Position numbers and translations under genes: made by a program
DNA from: a virus
IMG/VR virus record: IMGVR_UViG_3300046028_003045
Span: 1 to 24,113 of that record
Direction: 5' to 3' (one strand)
Length of the DNA: 24,113 bases
Shown here: piece after piece, positions 3,594 through 24,113 of the stretch
Layout of the letters: every line of letters begins with the position of its first letter
Position numbering within the stretch: the first letter of the stretch is position 1
Notes under the pieces: model-generated
The model's input: only the letters and a program-made list of their open reading frames with translations
Told to the model about the DNA's origin: nothing
Database searches by the model: none

Positions 3594-3607
3594 AATAATA
3601 TTTATGC
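3590..3607 (-). promoter_or_regulatory. Late promoter octamer and start-codon hairpin of the 468-aa gene
   Basis: CATAAATA (3606-3599), then 5 bases, then the ATG (3593). T4 late geometry puts +1 on the A of ATG. GCATAA and TTATGC form a 6-bp inverted repeat with a 6-base loop, the ATG lying in the 3' arm. Read-through mRNA could hide the AUG; mRNA started at +1 lacks the 5' arm. Confidence 0.5.
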
Positions 3608-3620
3608 CATACTATGCTTG

Positions 3621-4703
3621 TTAGAACGTAGCAATGAACGGCAACGGTTCAATAGAAACATCCTGGTGATCCCGCATTTGCTCGTCAAGATTTTGGTGGT
3701 AACTTTGCAGCACCTGCAACATGCGTACCGCTAGTATGGTGGACATTACAAGATCGTCGGTTTCCCCTATCTTGGCCTGATAACTAGTGCCCACAGCAAC
3801 AAAGTTCTTGAGCTCGGATATAAGAGACGGGCTGTTGATCTTCATTCTATCAGTCTCGACCAGATTCTTTAACTTAGCACAAGCAGCAAGCTTGGGCTTG
3901 TGTGTGGTGTTAAAGCCCTTGCGTGTTCTCCGGGATACGCTTTGTTGAGGATCACTTAGGAAGTAGCCCTTGATGTTTTCTTCTCCGTACTCAGCAATGC
4001 TGATCAGGGCTGCTTCGCCAATGGTGTTGTTCTCTACCGAGTAGTAAATTGTCTTGTCGTCTCGAACAATGTCGTATATGTACTGAATGATGTTGGTAAA
4101 GATTCGAATCTGAGTAGGAATGTCAGTACGATTATGTCTCCACTCGGCCACCTGTTCAGTAGTGTTAGCTTCAAACACTTGGATCGCAGCAGGGTCACCA
4201 CCTGTACCTAGACTTGGATCCAAGGACACGGTATAAATCCTATCCTTGACTGGCTGTTTGTACCATCGTACTTCTCCGGTCTTGAACAAGGGCTCGATGC
4301 CACGTAAGTCAATCAGTTTAGTAGGAGCAATAAGCGTCTCATCATTAATAATAAATTCGCAGTTCGATGATAACAACGAGTTTGTGTAGTATCTATGTCC
4401 GTCTTCAACTTCTATTAGATCGTAAACTGGTTCAATTCTTCCAGTGTCAATAATTGAAGTAACTGATAATTCTCCACTGATACTCAGTACAGTATCGCCT
4501 ATTTGTAAATCACTCACGGGAGTTCTAACTTGATTCCCTGTAAACAATTTGTGATTATTGGTACATTCGAGCCAATAGCCAGCATTAAAATCTAATCGGA
4601 ACACAGAACGATCGCCTACACGTCTAATTCCGGCAAAAGATTTATAACCGTTGGGTGTTAGTACTTTATATCCTCTGGTGTTTTCTTTATATATCATTGC
4701 CAT
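3621..4703 (-). CDS. 17: Terminase large subunit, C-terminal gene: split-intein C-part plus gp17 nuclease
   Basis: Residues 1-114 are an intein C-fragment: YKVLTPNGYKSFAGI (12-26), block B with T48-x-x-H51, LQIGDTVLSI (66-75), VYDLIEVEDGHRYYTN (93-108), ending SSN114. Residue C115 is the +1 nucleophile. Residues 115-360 are the C-extein: CEFIINDETLI, the universal gp17 continuation, then the RNase H-like packaging nuclease with D162 (SLDPSLGTGGD), E224 (SVENNTIGE) and D316/D317 (GETDDLVMS). Trans-splicing with the N-gene would give TerL of 275+246 = 521 residues, close to family size (T4: 610). The ATG has an AAGG Shine-Dalgarno about 8 bases upstream; Met3 is a possible coupled start. An in-frame TAA upstream rules out extension. 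The intein's penultimate residue is Ser, not the usual His. Confidence 0.92.
   Translation of the reverse strand: MAMIYKENTRGYKVLTPNGYKSFAGIRRVGDRSVFRLDFNAGYWLECTNNHKLFTGNQVRTPVSDLQIGDTVLSISGELSVTSIIDTGRIEPVYDLIEVEDGHRYYTNSLLSSNCEFIINDETLIAPTKLIDLRGIEPLFKTGEVRWYKQPVKDRIYTVSLDPSLGTGGDPAAIQVFEANTTEQVAEWRHNRTDIPTQIRIFTNIIQYIYDIVRDDKTIYYSVENNTIGEAALISIAEYGEENIKGYFLSDPQQSVSRRTRKGFNTTHKPKLAACAKLKNLVETDRMKINSPSLISELKNFVAVGTSYQAKIGETDDLVMSTILAVRMLQVLQSYHQNLDEQMRDHQDVSIEPLPFIATF
4362..4703 (-). mobile_element. Split intein, C-terminal fragment (114 residues)
   Basis: The fragment holds the splicing beta-strands following block A, block B (TNNH) and blocks F/G (VYDLIEVEDGHRYYTN...SSN, then Cys). It has no endonuclease domain. 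N-terminal residues MAMIYKENTRG precede the first conserved strand, much as in the AceL-TerL C-fragment, a 25+104-residue atypically split intein in the same protein. Asn114 (codon 4364-4362) would cyclise; Cys115 is the acceptor. Confidence 0.9.
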
Positions 4704-4768
4704 GTTAAAACCTTGTAAGTATTTTTATCTGTGAATAGCCAGACTTTGTAGTGGTATCCAGCAATCAT
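4694..4768 (-). CDS. 24-codon bridging ORF between the split-terminase genes
   Basis: The ATG (4768-4766) overlaps the TGA of the N-gene (ATGA). The TGA (4696-4694) overlaps the ATG of Met3 in the C-gene (ATGA again). The peptide starts MIAGYHYKVWLF and ends NTYKVLTWQ. Its NT.YKVLT resembles NTRGYKVLT at residues 8-16 of the C-gene, so it may be a decayed duplicate of the intein strand. It could serve mainly for translational coupling, or as nothing at all. Whether it is translated is unknown. Confidence 0.4.
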   Translation of the reverse strand: MIAGYHYKVWLFTDKNTYKVLTWQ

Positions 4769-5682
4769 TTGTCTATGACATCAAATAATTGTTCGATTGT
4801 CATGGATATAGTGACGCCGTTTAGTTGTAAATCAATCTCTGTATTACCGTGGCAGCAATCCATCTCTCGACGGAAGCGTTCTGTGCCCAAGGCAGCACGT
4901 TGCTGTTGTGCCCAGGTCTCGTCTCGATCCGGGTGTTCATTCCAAAAGCTACGGTAAGCCTTGAATCCATTCTGTCCAACTGTGGTAGGATTGCCGTATT
5001 CATCCTCACAACGGTTAGCACCTTTCCACAGCAGCGCAAACTGGTCTTCGTCTGAGTTGGGAGTGCTGGTAATAATTGCCTTACCACCTGTGGCTAATGT
5101 AGGGCTAATGGATGTCCAGAACTCCTTGGCGATAGTGGGGCGCACGAATGCAAATTCGTCCGCGTACAGCAGCGAAATACTCATACCCCGGCCGGTGTTT
5201 TCTGTAGTGGTTGCACTGACAATACGGCTACCGTTATCAAACTCCAGGCTGCCCTTGTTGTAACTGGTTACACCTGCACGGATATGATCAGGCACAGACT
5301 CGTATGCATATCTAATACGTTGCATAATTTCCTGGGCACCGGTGTACTTGTGTGCAGCAACCAGGATGGTAGAGTCCGGCACAAACATAGCATGCCATAA
5401 CAGGTAGCCAGCAGCACTGGTGGACTTGCCGGTCTGTCTTGGCATCATCGAGATAGAATATCTGTAGTTGTGATAGGTATCAATTAACCTGTGCTGATAT
5501 TCAAACGGATGATACAGCATACGTCCTTGCGTTGGATGCTGTATATAGAAAAAGTGATCTAAAAAGTAGATAGGTCCGCTTACCGGATCCGCACAGTTGA
5601 CAAATTCCTCAATGTGTGCTTGGGAGTAGGTAGACTTGGCGTGCGGACTTTTAATTAAGACGTTATCTAAATTTTTACTCAT
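4765..5682 (-). CDS. 17: Terminase large subunit, N-terminal gene: gp17 ATPase plus split-intein N-part
   Basis: Residues 1-275 are the packaging ATPase of gp17, the motor that drives DNA into the prohead. Visible are Walker A PRQTGKST (K86), Walker B LLYADEF (D175, E176) and the coupling motif ITSTPN (204-209). The extein ends FRREMD, exactly where gp17 proteins continue with CEF. Residues 276-305 are the intein N-fragment: C276 (Cys1), block A pattern C-x-x-G-N-T-E-I, then a strand and helix (ISMTIEQLFDVID) before TGA. The start overlaps the methyltransferase stop (ATGA), so translation is coupled. Frames differ between this gene and the C-gene, and a stop lies between, so no single frameshift rejoins them. 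Trans-splicing is required for a whole TerL; this is inferred from motif completeness. Confidence 0.93.
   Translation of the reverse strand: MSKNLDNVLIKSPHAKSTYSQAHIEEFVNCADPVSGPIYFLDHFFYIQHPTQGRMLYHPFEYQHRLIDTYHNYRYSISMMPRQTGKSTSAAGYLLWHAMFVPDSTILVAAHKYTGAQEIMQRIRYAYESVPDHIRAGVTSYNKGSLEFDNGSRIVSATTTENTGRGMSISLLYADEFAFVRPTIAKEFWTSISPTLATGGKAIITSTPNSDEDQFALLWKGANRCEDEYGNPTTVGQNGFKAYRSFWNEHPDRDETWAQQQRAALGTERFRREMDCCHGNTEIDLQLNGVTISMTIEQLFDVIDK
4768..4857 (-). mobile_element. Split intein, N-terminal fragment (about 30 residues)
   Basis: CCHGNTEIDLQLNG... starts at the codon 4857-4855. Taking the first Cys as residue 1 gives C-x-x-G-N-T, matching block A (compare C-x-x-G-D-T in AceL-TerL), and yields a spliced junction EMD-CEF with no extra residue. 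At 30 residues it is far shorter than the roughly 100-residue N-parts of canonical split inteins. Confidence 0.9.
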
Positions 5683-6329
5683 TTGATATCAACTGCCATT
5701 TTACGACGACACACAAAAATGTAATACTTCTCAGTGGCAGTGTCGGGTACCCGGTCATCAGAGAACGTTACCGGGAACTCATATTCATACCAGGTGGCTT
5801 CGAACCCGGTTCTCTGCAACAGGTTAGACCACATCTTCTTGTCCAGCACACTGTAGTGGTTACGGTTGCCTTCGTGATTGATCTCACAGTTTGGCTGCGG
5901 GACTTCAATATACAGCAGGCCATTGGGCTTTAGTGCTCGATTGTATTCCAACAGCGTAATGTACGGGAACGGACTGTGTTCAATGCTGTGCCGACAAAAA
6001 AGAAAATCCACAGACTCATCTCGTTCTTCGAGAAAGTTCATATCTGACAGCCGCACTGCATGACCATTGCGTTGGCACAGTTCAATATCTTCCCGACTCA
6101 GAGAAATGCCCAGTGTATTGGCGTAGCCACGATCCCGCATCTCAGTTAAAAAGTACCCAGGGCCGCAGCCCAGATCGATGATTCGCGCATCCAGGGGCAC
6201 GTGCTCTGGATCAATAAATCGTGTTAGTACGTCTTTTGTTATCTGTTGATGGAACGGACTTTCGCCCTCAGAGTACACCGAACTTAGCACATGGTCGTAG
6301 TAAAACTTTAGTTTGAGTTGCTTGTTCAT
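5679..6329 (-). CDS. SAM-dependent class I methyltransferase
   Basis: I place the start at the second Met (MNKQLKLKFYYDH), whose ATG overlaps the radical SAM stop (ATGA) and has AGGA 7 bases upstream. The longer frame to 6353 would add eight residues over the neighbouring gene. The 216-residue protein has motif I IIDLGCGPGYF (about 50-60), binding S-adenosylmethionine, then GISLSREDIELCQRNG (acidic loop region), FLFCRHSIEHSPFPY and LKPNGLLYIEVPQ, the usual Rossmann-fold order. The N-terminal FYYDHVLSSVYSEGESPFH resembles phage and SAM-glycan cluster methyltransferases. The substrate is unknown. It is sandwiched between the radical SAM gene and the terminase with start-stop overlaps on both sides, so all three are probably translated from one mRNA. 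Confidence 0.85.
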   Translation of the reverse strand: MNKQLKLKFYYDHVLSSVYSEGESPFHQQITKDVLTRFIDPEHVPLDARIIDLGCGPGYFLTEMRDRGYANTLGISLSREDIELCQRNGHAVRLSDMNFLEERDESVDFLFCRHSIEHSPFPYITLLEYNRALKPNGLLYIEVPQPNCEINHEGNRNHYSVLDKKMWSNLLQRTGFEATWYEYEFPVTFSDDRVPDTATEKYYIFVCRRKMAVDIK

Positions 6330-13077: not shown

Positions 13078-13085
13078 TATTTAAT
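13078..13085 (-). promoter_or_regulatory. Late promoter octamer directly before the gp16 start
   Basis: ATTAAATA, then TGCT, then ATG. The spacing is 4 bases, one less than the exact leaderless geometry seen at four other genes; +1 would fall on or within one base of the AUG. The octamer overlaps the last codons of the endonuclease gene. Confidence 0.45.
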
Positions 13086-13680
13086 GAGTTAATTTGCATG
13101 ATTCAAAGTCTTTGCGATGTTGCAGAGAATATTTGACCTTAGCCCATGAGATGTTTAATCGTTTAGAAATTTGTAGATTGTTTAGCCCAGCATCGTGCAA
13201 AGAAATAATCTGTAATGCAATGGTTAAATTTTTTTGTATGTAAGTATTCAGAGTAGATTGACGCTTTGAATTGGTCCAAGATTTACCTTTTCTTGCGTTT
13301 GCTGCTTTAAGACAATTATCTAATCTAGTTTGGATTGCTTTTTTAGTCCAAGTTTTAGATTTTTGATATTGTTTAATTTTTTCTTTAGTCGATGATAACA
13401 TTTTACCAGAGCCGCCATCCCCGGTTTCTGGTTTTAAATTAGCCCATGCATCATCAACAACAACATTCCATAAGTCACTGTAATACTGTCCCCAATATTT
13501 TACGTCGTTATTAGTTTGGCATTCTTTAAGAATTTCAGTGGTTACATCATTTCCGTGTTTTGATAGATGACGGCACCAGTATATGCCAGATCCTTTGTAC
13601 TTGTATGGATTTTGTATTGTTTTGCCCAGGTATTTTAACCCAGTTTTGTTATGTGTTTTCACATAGAGATAAGTAGGCAT
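13081..13680 (-). CDS. GIY-YIG-like homing endonuclease
   Basis: I start at MPTYLYVKTHNKTGLKYLGKT because AAGGAG lies 8 bases upstream; the longer frame would read through that Shine-Dalgarno sequence. In this 199-residue protein YLYVK...TGLKYLGKT takes the place of the GIY...YIG strands, with YKGSGIYWCRHLSKHG next, as in phage free-standing endonucleases of this variant. A Lys-rich linker follows (STKEKIKQYQKSKTW, ARKGKSWTNSKRQSTLN), and a C-terminal helix-turn-helix (LNNLQISKRLNISWAKVKYSLQ) for DNA binding. The gene is AT-rich against its neighbours and lies between gp4 and gp16, a typical site for a mobile endonuclease acting on an allele lacking it. Cleavage activity is inferred. Confidence 0.75.
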   Translation of the reverse strand: MPTYLYVKTHNKTGLKYLGKTIQNPYKYKGSGIYWCRHLSKHGNDVTTEILKECQTNNDVKYWGQYYSDLWNVVVDDAWANLKPETGDGGSGKMLSSTKEKIKQYQKSKTWTKKAIQTRLDNCLKAANARKGKSWTNSKRQSTLNTYIQKNLTIALQIISLHDAGLNNLQISKRLNISWAKVKYSLQHRKDFESCKLTH

Positions 13681-13740
13681 GCTGATTGCTCCTTCCAAGC
13701 ATTAGAGTAGTTGGATATTCCCGTATCGCGAACTACACCT

Positions 13741-22529: not shown

Positions 22530-22558
22530 ATTATAGCAGTATCACATTTGATTGTCAA
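22530..22558 (-). promoter_or_regulatory. Perfect-consensus sigma70 promoter
   Basis: TTGACA (22558-22553), 17 bases, TATAAT (22535-22530): all 12 consensus positions match at optimal spacing. The -35 lies inside the end of the HNH endonuclease gene. It directs transcription into the exonuclease, glycosyltransferase-like and kinase genes. Predicted +1 is at or within a base or two of the exonuclease ATG (22524). Confidence 0.88.
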
Positions 22559-23345
22559 AGTCTTCGAACAATTGTTCCTTGGTTTTATCGCATCTCATAC
22601 CTTTTTGTGAGTTGTTCGATAAAGATATTACACGCAGATTTGACCAATGTCCGATTATATACGGTGGTATGTTGTCCCTAAATCCTTGTTGAATGCTGTA
22701 AATATGATCCAGGGCATTTTTACTACGGTTAAGTCTATTTGGATTTATTTTGTTAAACTGAGTTTTCCAGTTCTCTTCGGACACTTGCCAAACAGCATCG
22801 TAATATAATCTACGTAACGATCTCAAATGCTTAGGTGTAGCACCGTTACTAATTCTTTTATCTGAAACTTTTTTTCTTGCTTCATTAGTTTTACTACCGT
22901 TTTCAACACCGTATCGTTCTAGGCAAGTTTGTTTAGATTTTTCTCTGTCAGCTGATGTATATGTAGATTTATCTCTATACTTTCTACCATTAGCTACTGC
23001 TTTTAGATTGCTTAGCCGATTTTTTTCTCTAGCCGACTGCGAATAACAGTTAGCAAAATCACCTCTGTTTGCTTGAAACTTTCCCTTAGCAGAACGACTA
23101 GATGTGATCAGATATCTATTTTCCCACCATTTAACCGGGATTTGTGTAATCGGGCATAAAGGTATTGACCATACATCATTAAGTATGTGCCAAAATCGTT
23201 GTTTGGGTTTTGCAGATTCTGGAAGGAATTCAGTTGTCTTTATAATCCGTTCCCAGAGTTCAGGATGCGTTTTATAAAGATATCTTGTTGCCGATTTATT
23301 ATAAGAAGTGTCGTTGTTGATAATGGATAAGAGTATGGATTTCAT
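22542..23345 (-). CDS. HNH-type free-standing homing endonuclease
   Basis: I take the start MKSILLSIINNDTSYNKSATRYLY (267 residues) because it lies 5 bases after ACTAAATA and the longer frame would run back into the neck gene. The middle has LERYGVENGSKTNEARKKVSDKRISNG, the DNA-binding repeat type found in phage endonucleases. The nuclease core is ALDHIYSIQQGFRDNIPPYIIGHWSNLRVISLSNNSQKG: D-H, then H, then N..N, an HNH/His-Me finger. The gene is markedly AT-rich and sits between the neck gene and the exonuclease, splitting what look like late and early blocks. Its start codon is inside a perfect 11-bp hairpin containing the late promoter. Confidence 0.82.
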   Translation of the reverse strand: MKSILLSIINNDTSYNKSATRYLYKTHPELWERIIKTTEFLPESAKPKQRFWHILNDVWSIPLCPITQIPVKWWENRYLITSSRSAKGKFQANRGDFANCYSQSAREKNRLSNLKAVANGRKYRDKSTYTSADREKSKQTCLERYGVENGSKTNEARKKVSDKRISNGATPKHLRSLRRLYYDAVWQVSEENWKTQFNKINPNRLNRSKNALDHIYSIQQGFRDNIPPYIIGHWSNLRVISLSNNSQKGMRCDKTKEQLFEDFDNQM

Positions 23346-23358
23346 ACTCTTATTTAGT
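23327..23358 (-). promoter_or_regulatory. Late promoter and start-codon hairpin of the HNH endonuclease
   Basis: ATAAGAGTATG (23353-23343) pairs perfectly with CATACTCTTAT (23337-23327) around a 5-base loop. The ATG (23345-23343) closes the 5' arm, and ACTAAATA (23358-23351) overlaps its start. +1 is predicted on the ATG, so late mRNA would lack eight bases of the 5' arm. A second octamer-like GTTAAATA lies at 23385-23378. Confidence 0.65.
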
Positions 23359-23380
23359 CTTATCCTACTACAAACGTTAT

Positions 23381-24113
23381 TTAACCAATTACAAGTGTTA
23401 GAGGGGCACTGCCATCTACATACAGGTACAGATCTGCAATACATCTATCCATCATAGCTTGGCCTTCTGATTTCATAGCAGTGCCGTTTAAGGTGCCGCC
23501 GCCCTGTGGACCAGCAATTGTTCCGAACTTTTCACGAGCTTCGCCGATAATGTACTTGGCTGCACCCACCATGTGATCCCGTACCCACTGGCTGATCTGG
23601 AAGTCAGCTAACATTGTAATTTCGGGTTTGAGATTATAGGACCAAAGCAACACCACTTCGCCAGTGCCTTTGGGGTCGCGGATCAGTTGAAGTTTCTTGG
23701 TTACTGGATTCCATGTATAGTTGATATAGCCGCCAAACATTCGGGCTGCCAGTTCAACATACTGCTGATAGAAGTCGTAAGTGGCCAGGCCGCCTTGAGA
23801 GTTAAAGTTCATCAAGTACACATTGAGCGATGCTGCACCGAACGGGTCAAAGCTGTTGGTGCCGCCGCCGGTGCTGAGGCCAATTGTACGTCTAAAAATT
23901 TGCCGTACCTGAATAACTTCCTGCGGCAAGGTGTATTCATTAACGTCATTCAAGAGCTGCATAAAGCTATAGCTCTCTTCGTAGGCGTTTTGTGCCCGCT
24001 GTCGATACACACCTATTGTGCGTTGATATGCTGCTTCGTAGTGTGCAGGATCCAGCTCAATGTCAACAATCAGACTACCGAGCTGGAGTTGCACATATTC
24101 AATTAGCTGTTTT
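23381..24113 (-). CDS. 13: Neck protein, gp13-like (5' end beyond window)
   Basis: The frame is open to the right edge: upstream of the GTG at 24094 the codons KQLIEY continue, so this is a partial gene of at least 244 codons. The beginning KQLIEYVQLQLGSLIVDIEL resembles the N-termini of T4-like gp13. The end is characteristic of the marine neck proteins: VLLWSYNLKPEITML, WVRDHMVGAAKYIIGEAREKFGTIAGPQGGGTLNGTAMKSEG. In T4 gp13 (309 residues) and gp14 form the neck that joins head and tail. The HNH gene and then the exonuclease follow. The assignment to gp13 is by pattern; a related neck or connector protein is the alternative. Confidence 0.75.
   Translation of the reverse strand, partial: KQLIEYVQLQLGSLIVDIELDPAHYEAAYQRTIGVYRQRAQNAYEESYSFMQLLNDVNEYTLPQEVIQVRQIFRRTIGLSTGGGTNSFDPFGAASLNVYLMNFNSQGGLATYDFYQQYVELAARMFGGYINYTWNPVTKKLQLIRDPKGTGEVVLLWSYNLKPEITMLADFQISQWVRDHMVGAAKYIIGEAREKFGTIAGPQGGGTLNGTAMKSEGQAMMDRCIADLYLYVDGSAPLTLVIG

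Follow-up and report, generated by a model that had tools for sequence, protein, structure and literature searches.

How does a phage obtain a working large terminase subunit (TerL) when the gene is in two pieces, and what broke it apart? The question is raised by IMG/VR virus record IMGVR_UViG_3300046028_003045, whose positions 1 to 24,113 (the whole stretch of 24,113 nucleotides [nt] analyzed, here called the window) contain two separate genes that each encode part of a TerL and part of an intein. The N-gene (5682..4765, minus strand) encodes 305 amino acids (aa) and ends with a 30-aa intein N-part (intN) opened by C276-C-H-G-N-T-E-I. The C-gene (4703..3621, minus strand) encodes 360 aa and starts with a 114-aa intein C-part (intC) that contains T48-N-N-H51 and ends with S-S-N114, directly followed by C115. 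The gap separating the two genes is 61 nt long (4764..4704). Joining D275 to C115 gave a protein of 521 residues with zero internal stops and the junction ...RREMD-CEFII.... Thus, the coordinates, lengths, and motifs that a sequence-only reading had given for both genes and their 30- and 114-aa intein parts were all as claimed, and its joining of the halves to EMD-CEF in a 521-residue TerL was reproduced without an internal stop. The features of the locus are as follows:

4858..5682, minus strand: TerL N-extein, residues 1 to 275, with RQTGKS, LLYADE, and TSTPN (read by eye), which we take to be Walker A, Walker B, and a TerL motif, respectively.
4768..4857, minus strand: intein N-part of 30 aa that starts with Cys1 (C276) and carries block A; followed by the TGA stop (4767-4765).
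4694..4768, minus strand: putative relic left by an endonuclease-like gene, comprising 24 codons (MIAGYHYKVWLFTDKNTYKVLTWQ) and a stop; found by tblastn with open reading frames (ORFs) of relatives.
4362..4703, minus strand: intein C-part, 114 aa, with TNNH block B, block F VYDLIEVEDGHRYY, and C-terminal Ser-Ser-Asn; matches CatC.
3621..4361, minus strand: TerL C-extein, 246 aa plus stop, nuclease domain, starting with Cys+1 Glu+2; matches Terminase_6C.

The exteins matched Pfam models of the T4-type terminase large subunit (N-gene, Terminase_6N, E 8e-15; C-gene, Terminase_6C, E 5.6e-8), and PHROGs also assigned them to the terminase large subunit (phrog_36964). The general intein models responded unevenly: Pfam Intein_splicing stayed below threshold (18.6 versus a cut-off of 35.8 bits), as did NCBIfam intein_Nterm (20.4 versus 24.5), and intein_Cterm was above its cut-off (16.1 versus 15.6). 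We confirm that one T4-type TerL is encoded by two separate genes carrying intein halves.

Which intein is it? The proposal made from the sequence alone, a new AceL-type atypically split TerL intein, is supported by the match of the C-part to the CatC chain of 6DSL in the PDB (E 2.6e-13, residues 4 to 115, ~53 bits; VidaL came next with 8e-4) and by the HINT fold predicted for a contiguous relative, L018 (L-numbers are labels of loci in viral contigs). The fused window intein matched Cat with an E of 2.2e-13 and VidaL (6VGV) with an E of 1.8e-4, and the C-part matched a profile of 58 relatives with an E of 3e-34. All class 1 residues are present in the window (Cys1, block B TxxH, the terminal Asn, and Cys+1), and each was found in 61/61 relatives, the +1 residue having been anchored on extein queries that start with Cys, which bears on the count for Cys+1. 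The L018 model (pLDDT 95.8) matched 90 of 988 chains at Z >= 8, with VidaL as the best PDB match (Z 20.7, 1.9 Å over 139 residues; the following rows tie) at a low sequence identity of 16 to 20%; Foldseek also found the Cat structure, at rank 29 and 30% identity. In this model, a loop connects a helix (22-28) to a strand (37-40), and by eye the window N-part ends just past the matching helix.

The window intein also has the dimensions of the AceL/GOS/Cat class (intN of ~15 to 40 aa, intC of ~100 aa or more), C-part homology to the Cat consensus, and a T4-type TerL as the host gene. Like Cat, AceL-TerL, and GOS-TerL (6DSL), it combines a TerL host with a short intN (25 to 37 aa reported) and a long intC (104 aa in Cat, 114 aa in the window). 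AceL-TerL presumably sits at the very same insertion codon. According to an excerpt of PMC11766414, intN has 25 aa in AceL-TerL and 37 aa in GOS-TerL, Cat was designed from GOS- and Ace-TerL, and Cat has Glu+2, as does the window; a VLTP-G-xxxF-GI stretch is similar in the two. Unlike in Cat, AceL, and GOS, the penultimate residue in the window is Ser instead of His, and the gap holds an endonuclease-like relic. Several points weigh against the assignment. The Cat match of the fused query begins only beyond the N-part. The short intN by itself matches weakly; with a 58-sequence intN profile it was the top match among 674 window frames, with an E of 6e-4. The penultimate His is missing in the window and present in only 1/61 relatives, a residue that is common but not obligatory in class 1 inteins. 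Finally, the structure model is that of L018, whose intC is 44% identical, and not that of the window halves. With these points taken into account, membership of the window intein in the AceL/GOS/Cat-TerL atypically split class, as a new member, is supported.

If so, the N-gene and C-gene would be translated separately, the intN tail of the ATPase half (30 aa) would dock with the intC head (114 aa) at the start of the nuclease half to complete the HINT fold, and class 1 splicing by Cys1, TxxH, Asn, and Cys+1 would excise both intein pieces. The ligation of Asp275 to the Cys+1 encoded by the C-gene would then yield a normal TerL of 521 residues. We give a probability of roughly 0.9 to the reading that separately made halves trans-splice in this way and that the split arose by deletion of an endonuclease gene.

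The alternative that survives best is that the intein is dead or unneeded and that the ATPase and nuclease halves act as separate chains, a "gene in pieces." The break does sit between the ATPase and nuclease regions, and a phage ribonucleotide reductase split by a homing endonuclease gene functions as two peptides (PMC10448857, in excerpt). We nevertheless regard this as improbable, since intC is under stronger constraint than the exteins: the ratio of nonsynonymous to synonymous proportions (pN/pS) between the window and L005 was 0.151 for intC and 0.207 and 0.251 for the exteins, with synonymous sites saturated. Also, the four catalytic residues are retained in all relatives, and the two parts co-vary. 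A Mantel comparison of 61/67 splits gave an r of 0.66 between the distances of the N-part and those of the C-part (0.63 to 0.65 with extein distance removed), whereas the correlation of intN with N-extein distance was just 0.21; such covariation is as expected for two halves of one mobile element. The pN/pS of intN, 0.451 over 30 codons in the window-L005 comparison, counts on the other side. Taken as a whole, the window intein looks functional.

What lies in the break? One frame of the gap reads like the C-terminal tail of the DUF7487-type ORFs that occupy the break in relatives. When the ORFs of L006, L005, and L033 were searched against the window by tblastn, the gap was the best match in the whole 24 kb for each query (E 2.6e-7, 4.4e-6, and 6e-5, respectively). 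The relic is identical to L005 at 49/72 nt, and it retains the residues G, Y, W, F, and Y, invariant in 11 aligned full-length ORFs. Its ATG overlaps the TGA of the N-gene (ATGA), and its 3' end, including its own TGA, extends 10 nt into the C-gene, an overlap also seen in L005, L006, L164, and L183. The ORFs form a length series, from 338 aa in L033 over 131 in L005 and L164 and 90 in L006 to 24 codons in the window. It could be argued that the gap is a plain spacer that resembles endonuclease tails by chance, as merely ~24 codons are involved and an open frame of such length is not unusual. Chance is a very unlikely explanation, however, for the top match in 24 kb with three queries, for a position and 10-nt overlap as in the ORF tails of L005, L006, L164, and L183, and for the retention of the invariant residues.

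The gap thus looks like the relic of a lost DUF7487-type endonuclease-like gene, and the split in the window is best read as the scar left by this loss; the comparison with relatives is direct, its direction we infer. An endonuclease-like gene, with its stop overlapping the C-gene start as in the relatives, would have been lost by deletion except for the last ~24 codons, which were perhaps kept for the ribosome-binding region of the C-gene and the stop/start overlap. An AAGG is located 7 nt upstream of the C-gene ATG (by eye). Promoter and terminator scans were close to chance level.

Relics were searched for in 13 splits and 8 contiguous loci, with L226 (671-nt gap, ORF unassigned) set aside. 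HNH tails persist in L143/L265, L258, and L244, and L171 has a possible 5' piece of an ORF (weak match, E 0.004). The intN of L198, a split that contains the ORF, recurs in L203, where just 34 codons of the ORF are left. The contiguous inteins L259 (1063-1518), L266 (2221-2673), and L267 (3890-4330; weak, E 0.003) hold an out-of-frame HNH tail, with the matches lying partly in DNA that also codes for the start of the C-part; these three were apparently re-fused after endonuclease loss. The same search found no tail match in the contiguous inteins L004, L018, L021, and L044; in contiguous L196, the sole match was weak (E 0.004) and involved an unassigned L177 ORF. Counting against a general loss, no relic was found in the ORF-less splits L177, L186, and L074, and endonuclease loss is therefore not shown for every case.

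The two remaining explanations fare worse. Joining of the two genes by RNA splicing of an intron has a precedent in phage ICP1, whose terL undergoes RNA splicing (PMC10448857, in excerpt). In the window it is hardly credible: Rfam gave no match up to an E of 1 across 3600-5700, the RNA structure of the gap is ordinary (z 0.05), excision of just the 61-nt gap would leave intein coding sequence behind, and the flanks carry protein-splicing motifs. That a sequencing or assembly error interrupted a single continuous intein gene, as the different frames of the two halves and the 8 contiguous inserts among 87 distinct ones might suggest, is the least likely of all, because the same DNA occurs in three other contigs and the break falls at the same residue in diverged loci, and because the gap resembles an endonuclease tail.

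The contigs that bear on the latter point also show how the site varies. L002, L003, and L007 carry identical split DNA (100%; L007 ends inside the C-extein) and are separate assemblies, perhaps from one sampling project. L005, L006, and L164, whose C-parts are 76 to 77% identical to that of the window, are split at the same residue, and L005 and L006 have a 30-aa intN ending in a stop, as in the window. L008, L009, and L011 have an empty site, with the flanks precisely joined as GAT|TGC; the 30 nt on either side equal the window sequence, and nucleotide identity to the window is 94.5 to 95.4% in the N-extein (of which L011 spans only a part) and 96.5% in the C-extein. L004, with exteins of 94 to 96% nucleotide identity, is occupied at this site by another intein, which is contiguous and whose C-part shows 32% identity to that of the window, and in L012 and L013 the residue-275 site is empty and an intein-like insert is present at residue 174. 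Inteins seem to turn over fast in this phage group. Empty TerL sites were counted at 128 and 204 loci in two tallies, in which overlapping fetched stretches were left unmerged.

How common is such a split? The loci came from pattern-seeded scans, two of which comprised the best 80 matches, and all counts are therefore minimum values and not estimates of abundance; a scan of genome contigs reduced 138 pattern matches to 3 loci. After loci with identical site DNA had been merged (136 loci to 87 rows), there were at least 87 distinct inserts at this TerL site: 67 split, 8 contiguous, and 12 without an N side, among which L059 resembles an unoccupied site truncated where the contig ends. With at least 67 distinct splits in viral contigs, the class cannot be called rare, as it had been. 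The splits compared are diverse (49 clusters at 80% intC identity among 61). A canonical split was considered for them and rejected, as intN has 29 to 50 aa in 66/67; the exception with 92 aa, L244, has its intN fused to an HNH tail. In L244 (2565-2843), intN is in frame with the HNH endonuclease tail, 92 aa in total, and overlaps the C-gene frame.

An endonuclease-like ORF, in some cases truncated, was found in the break of 56/67 splits. By blastp clustering (E 1e-4), 35 ORFs belonged to an HNH-like cluster, 20 to a DUF7487 cluster, and 1 to GIY-YIG; 11 splits had no assigned ORF. A Pfam scan of one member each gave DUF7487 for L033 (3e-35), a sub-threshold HNH for L019 (19.4 versus 21.4 bits), and GIY-YIG above cut-off for L210. 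The ORF stop overlaps the C-gene start in 53/55, the exceptions being L166 and L197, whose ORFs end early; since the C-gene start nearest to the ORF stop was chosen, overlap was favored, and L210 had no start in range. L033 carries a DUF7487 ORF and its nearest inteins beyond its own pair (L028 and L027; 76 to 78%) carry HNH ORFs; the ORF families thus seem to be exchanged among related inteins. DUF7487 is a family of unknown function in Pfam. The ORFs of this cluster bear a YYPD...ExK motif, and three of them are clearly truncated (L005, L006, and L164). A fold search with the model of the L033 ORF (uneven, mean pLDDT 81.7, pTM 0.42) gave zero matches at an E of 0.001 or better; many of the leading rows (E 0.03 and up) are nucleases of the PD-(D/E)XK kind. 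The L033 protein had no credible match in the PDB by phmmer and none in NCBIfam. The putative nuclease identity of the DUF7487 ORFs thus comes mainly from the YYPD...E-x-K motif, together with a weak fold match, which weakens the case for an endonuclease in the window's break. Two further ORFs of the window may be mentioned here: one of 300 aa (22542-23444, minus strand) whose DUF7487 match stays below threshold (E 1.5e-4; 22.2 bits versus a cut-off of 27) and which may be another endonuclease-like gene, and one of 205 aa (13081-13698, minus strand) that by eye resembles a GIY-YIG homing endonuclease, although Pfam found no GIY-YIG match.

The sequence-only reading had also held that the break lies away from the usual endonuclease site. 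The atypical position stands; what does not stand is its separation from endonucleases, since endonuclease-like genes occupy this very break in relatives and the tail of such a gene persists in the window. In 2009, Dassa reportedly used the term "fractured genes" for split inteins whose halves flank a free-standing homing endonuclease. The splits described here share with them the ORF between the halves (56/67, remnants counted) and differ in that the break follows after ~30 residues instead of at the usual endonuclease site, that three ORF clusters are involved, and that the ORF of the window is lost: of the complete endonuclease ORF that marks a fractured gene, the window has the last ~24 codons only.

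Comparable arrangements exist in cultured phages. Pseudomonas phage MIJ3 has a split PolB intein with an HNH endonuclease ORF between the halves (PMC6892783, in excerpt). The host gene of that intein is a different one; the TerL of MIJ3, among the closest cultured relatives of the window's, is uninterrupted at the residue-275 site by match coordinates. TerL is encoded by two overlapping or adjacent genes with a short intN and a long intC in EniLVp02, PSTRCR_127, and Krischvirus Kaaroe, phiS, and TB34. As read by eye from the translations, Vibrio phage EniLVp02 is split at the same site as the window, with overlapping genes and without an endonuclease; Providencia PSTRCR_127 is split one codon upstream, with a GIY-YIG-like ORF between the halves; and the Krischvirus genes are split at Walker B, with intN and a nuclease-like region in one continuous frame. 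In these three (L272, L276, and L277), gp17 is in two overlapping genes, with an N-gene of 583 aa. In Agrobacterium phage Atu_ph07 (L281, 1477-3668), TerL is split inside the P-loop (GRQLGK / TTVAAA); the halves read as a short N-part starting with Ser and a longer C-part whose last residues, SHN, precede Thr. This may be an atypically split intein with Ser1 and Thr+1. Split inserts at both residue 174 (Walker B) and residue 275 were found in L023, L027, L166, L170, L171, L180, L186, L203, L205, L250, and L258. Because both sites carry split inserts, TerL in these 11 loci seems to be encoded in three pieces and would need two trans-splicing events.

Can the origin of the whole class be read from these loci? 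We lean slightly toward the view that endonuclease genes belonging to three or more unrelated families fractured many TerL genes ~30 residues into the intein, and that atypically split inteins as a class, AceL and Cat among them, would result from endonuclease invasion followed by loss (the window), persistence, or re-fusion (L259, L266, and L267). The site may be the pseudo-symmetric counterpart (N35 site) of the canonical endonuclease site, as argued from position only. By the reasoning of Beyer et al. (2019), endonuclease insertions at the pseudo-symmetric N-terminal site should clash with the exteins; an endonuclease kept as a separate, overlapping gene, with the intein itself split, would avoid such a clash. 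A population of fractured TerL genes with such an N-terminal break was not found described in the literature searched, and earlier split-intein papers (Dassa 2009, Thiel 2014, Bachmann 2015, and Stevens 2018) may already report an endonuclease located between atypical halves. The graded series, from the full ORF over remnants and a 24-codon relic to no ORF or an apparently re-fused intein, makes the origin of atypical splits testable. At the same time, the at least 67 splits provide dozens of natural inteins with a short intN that could serve in protein ligation and labeling, and cultured phages are now identified in which the natural trans-splicing of an essential motor protein could be measured.
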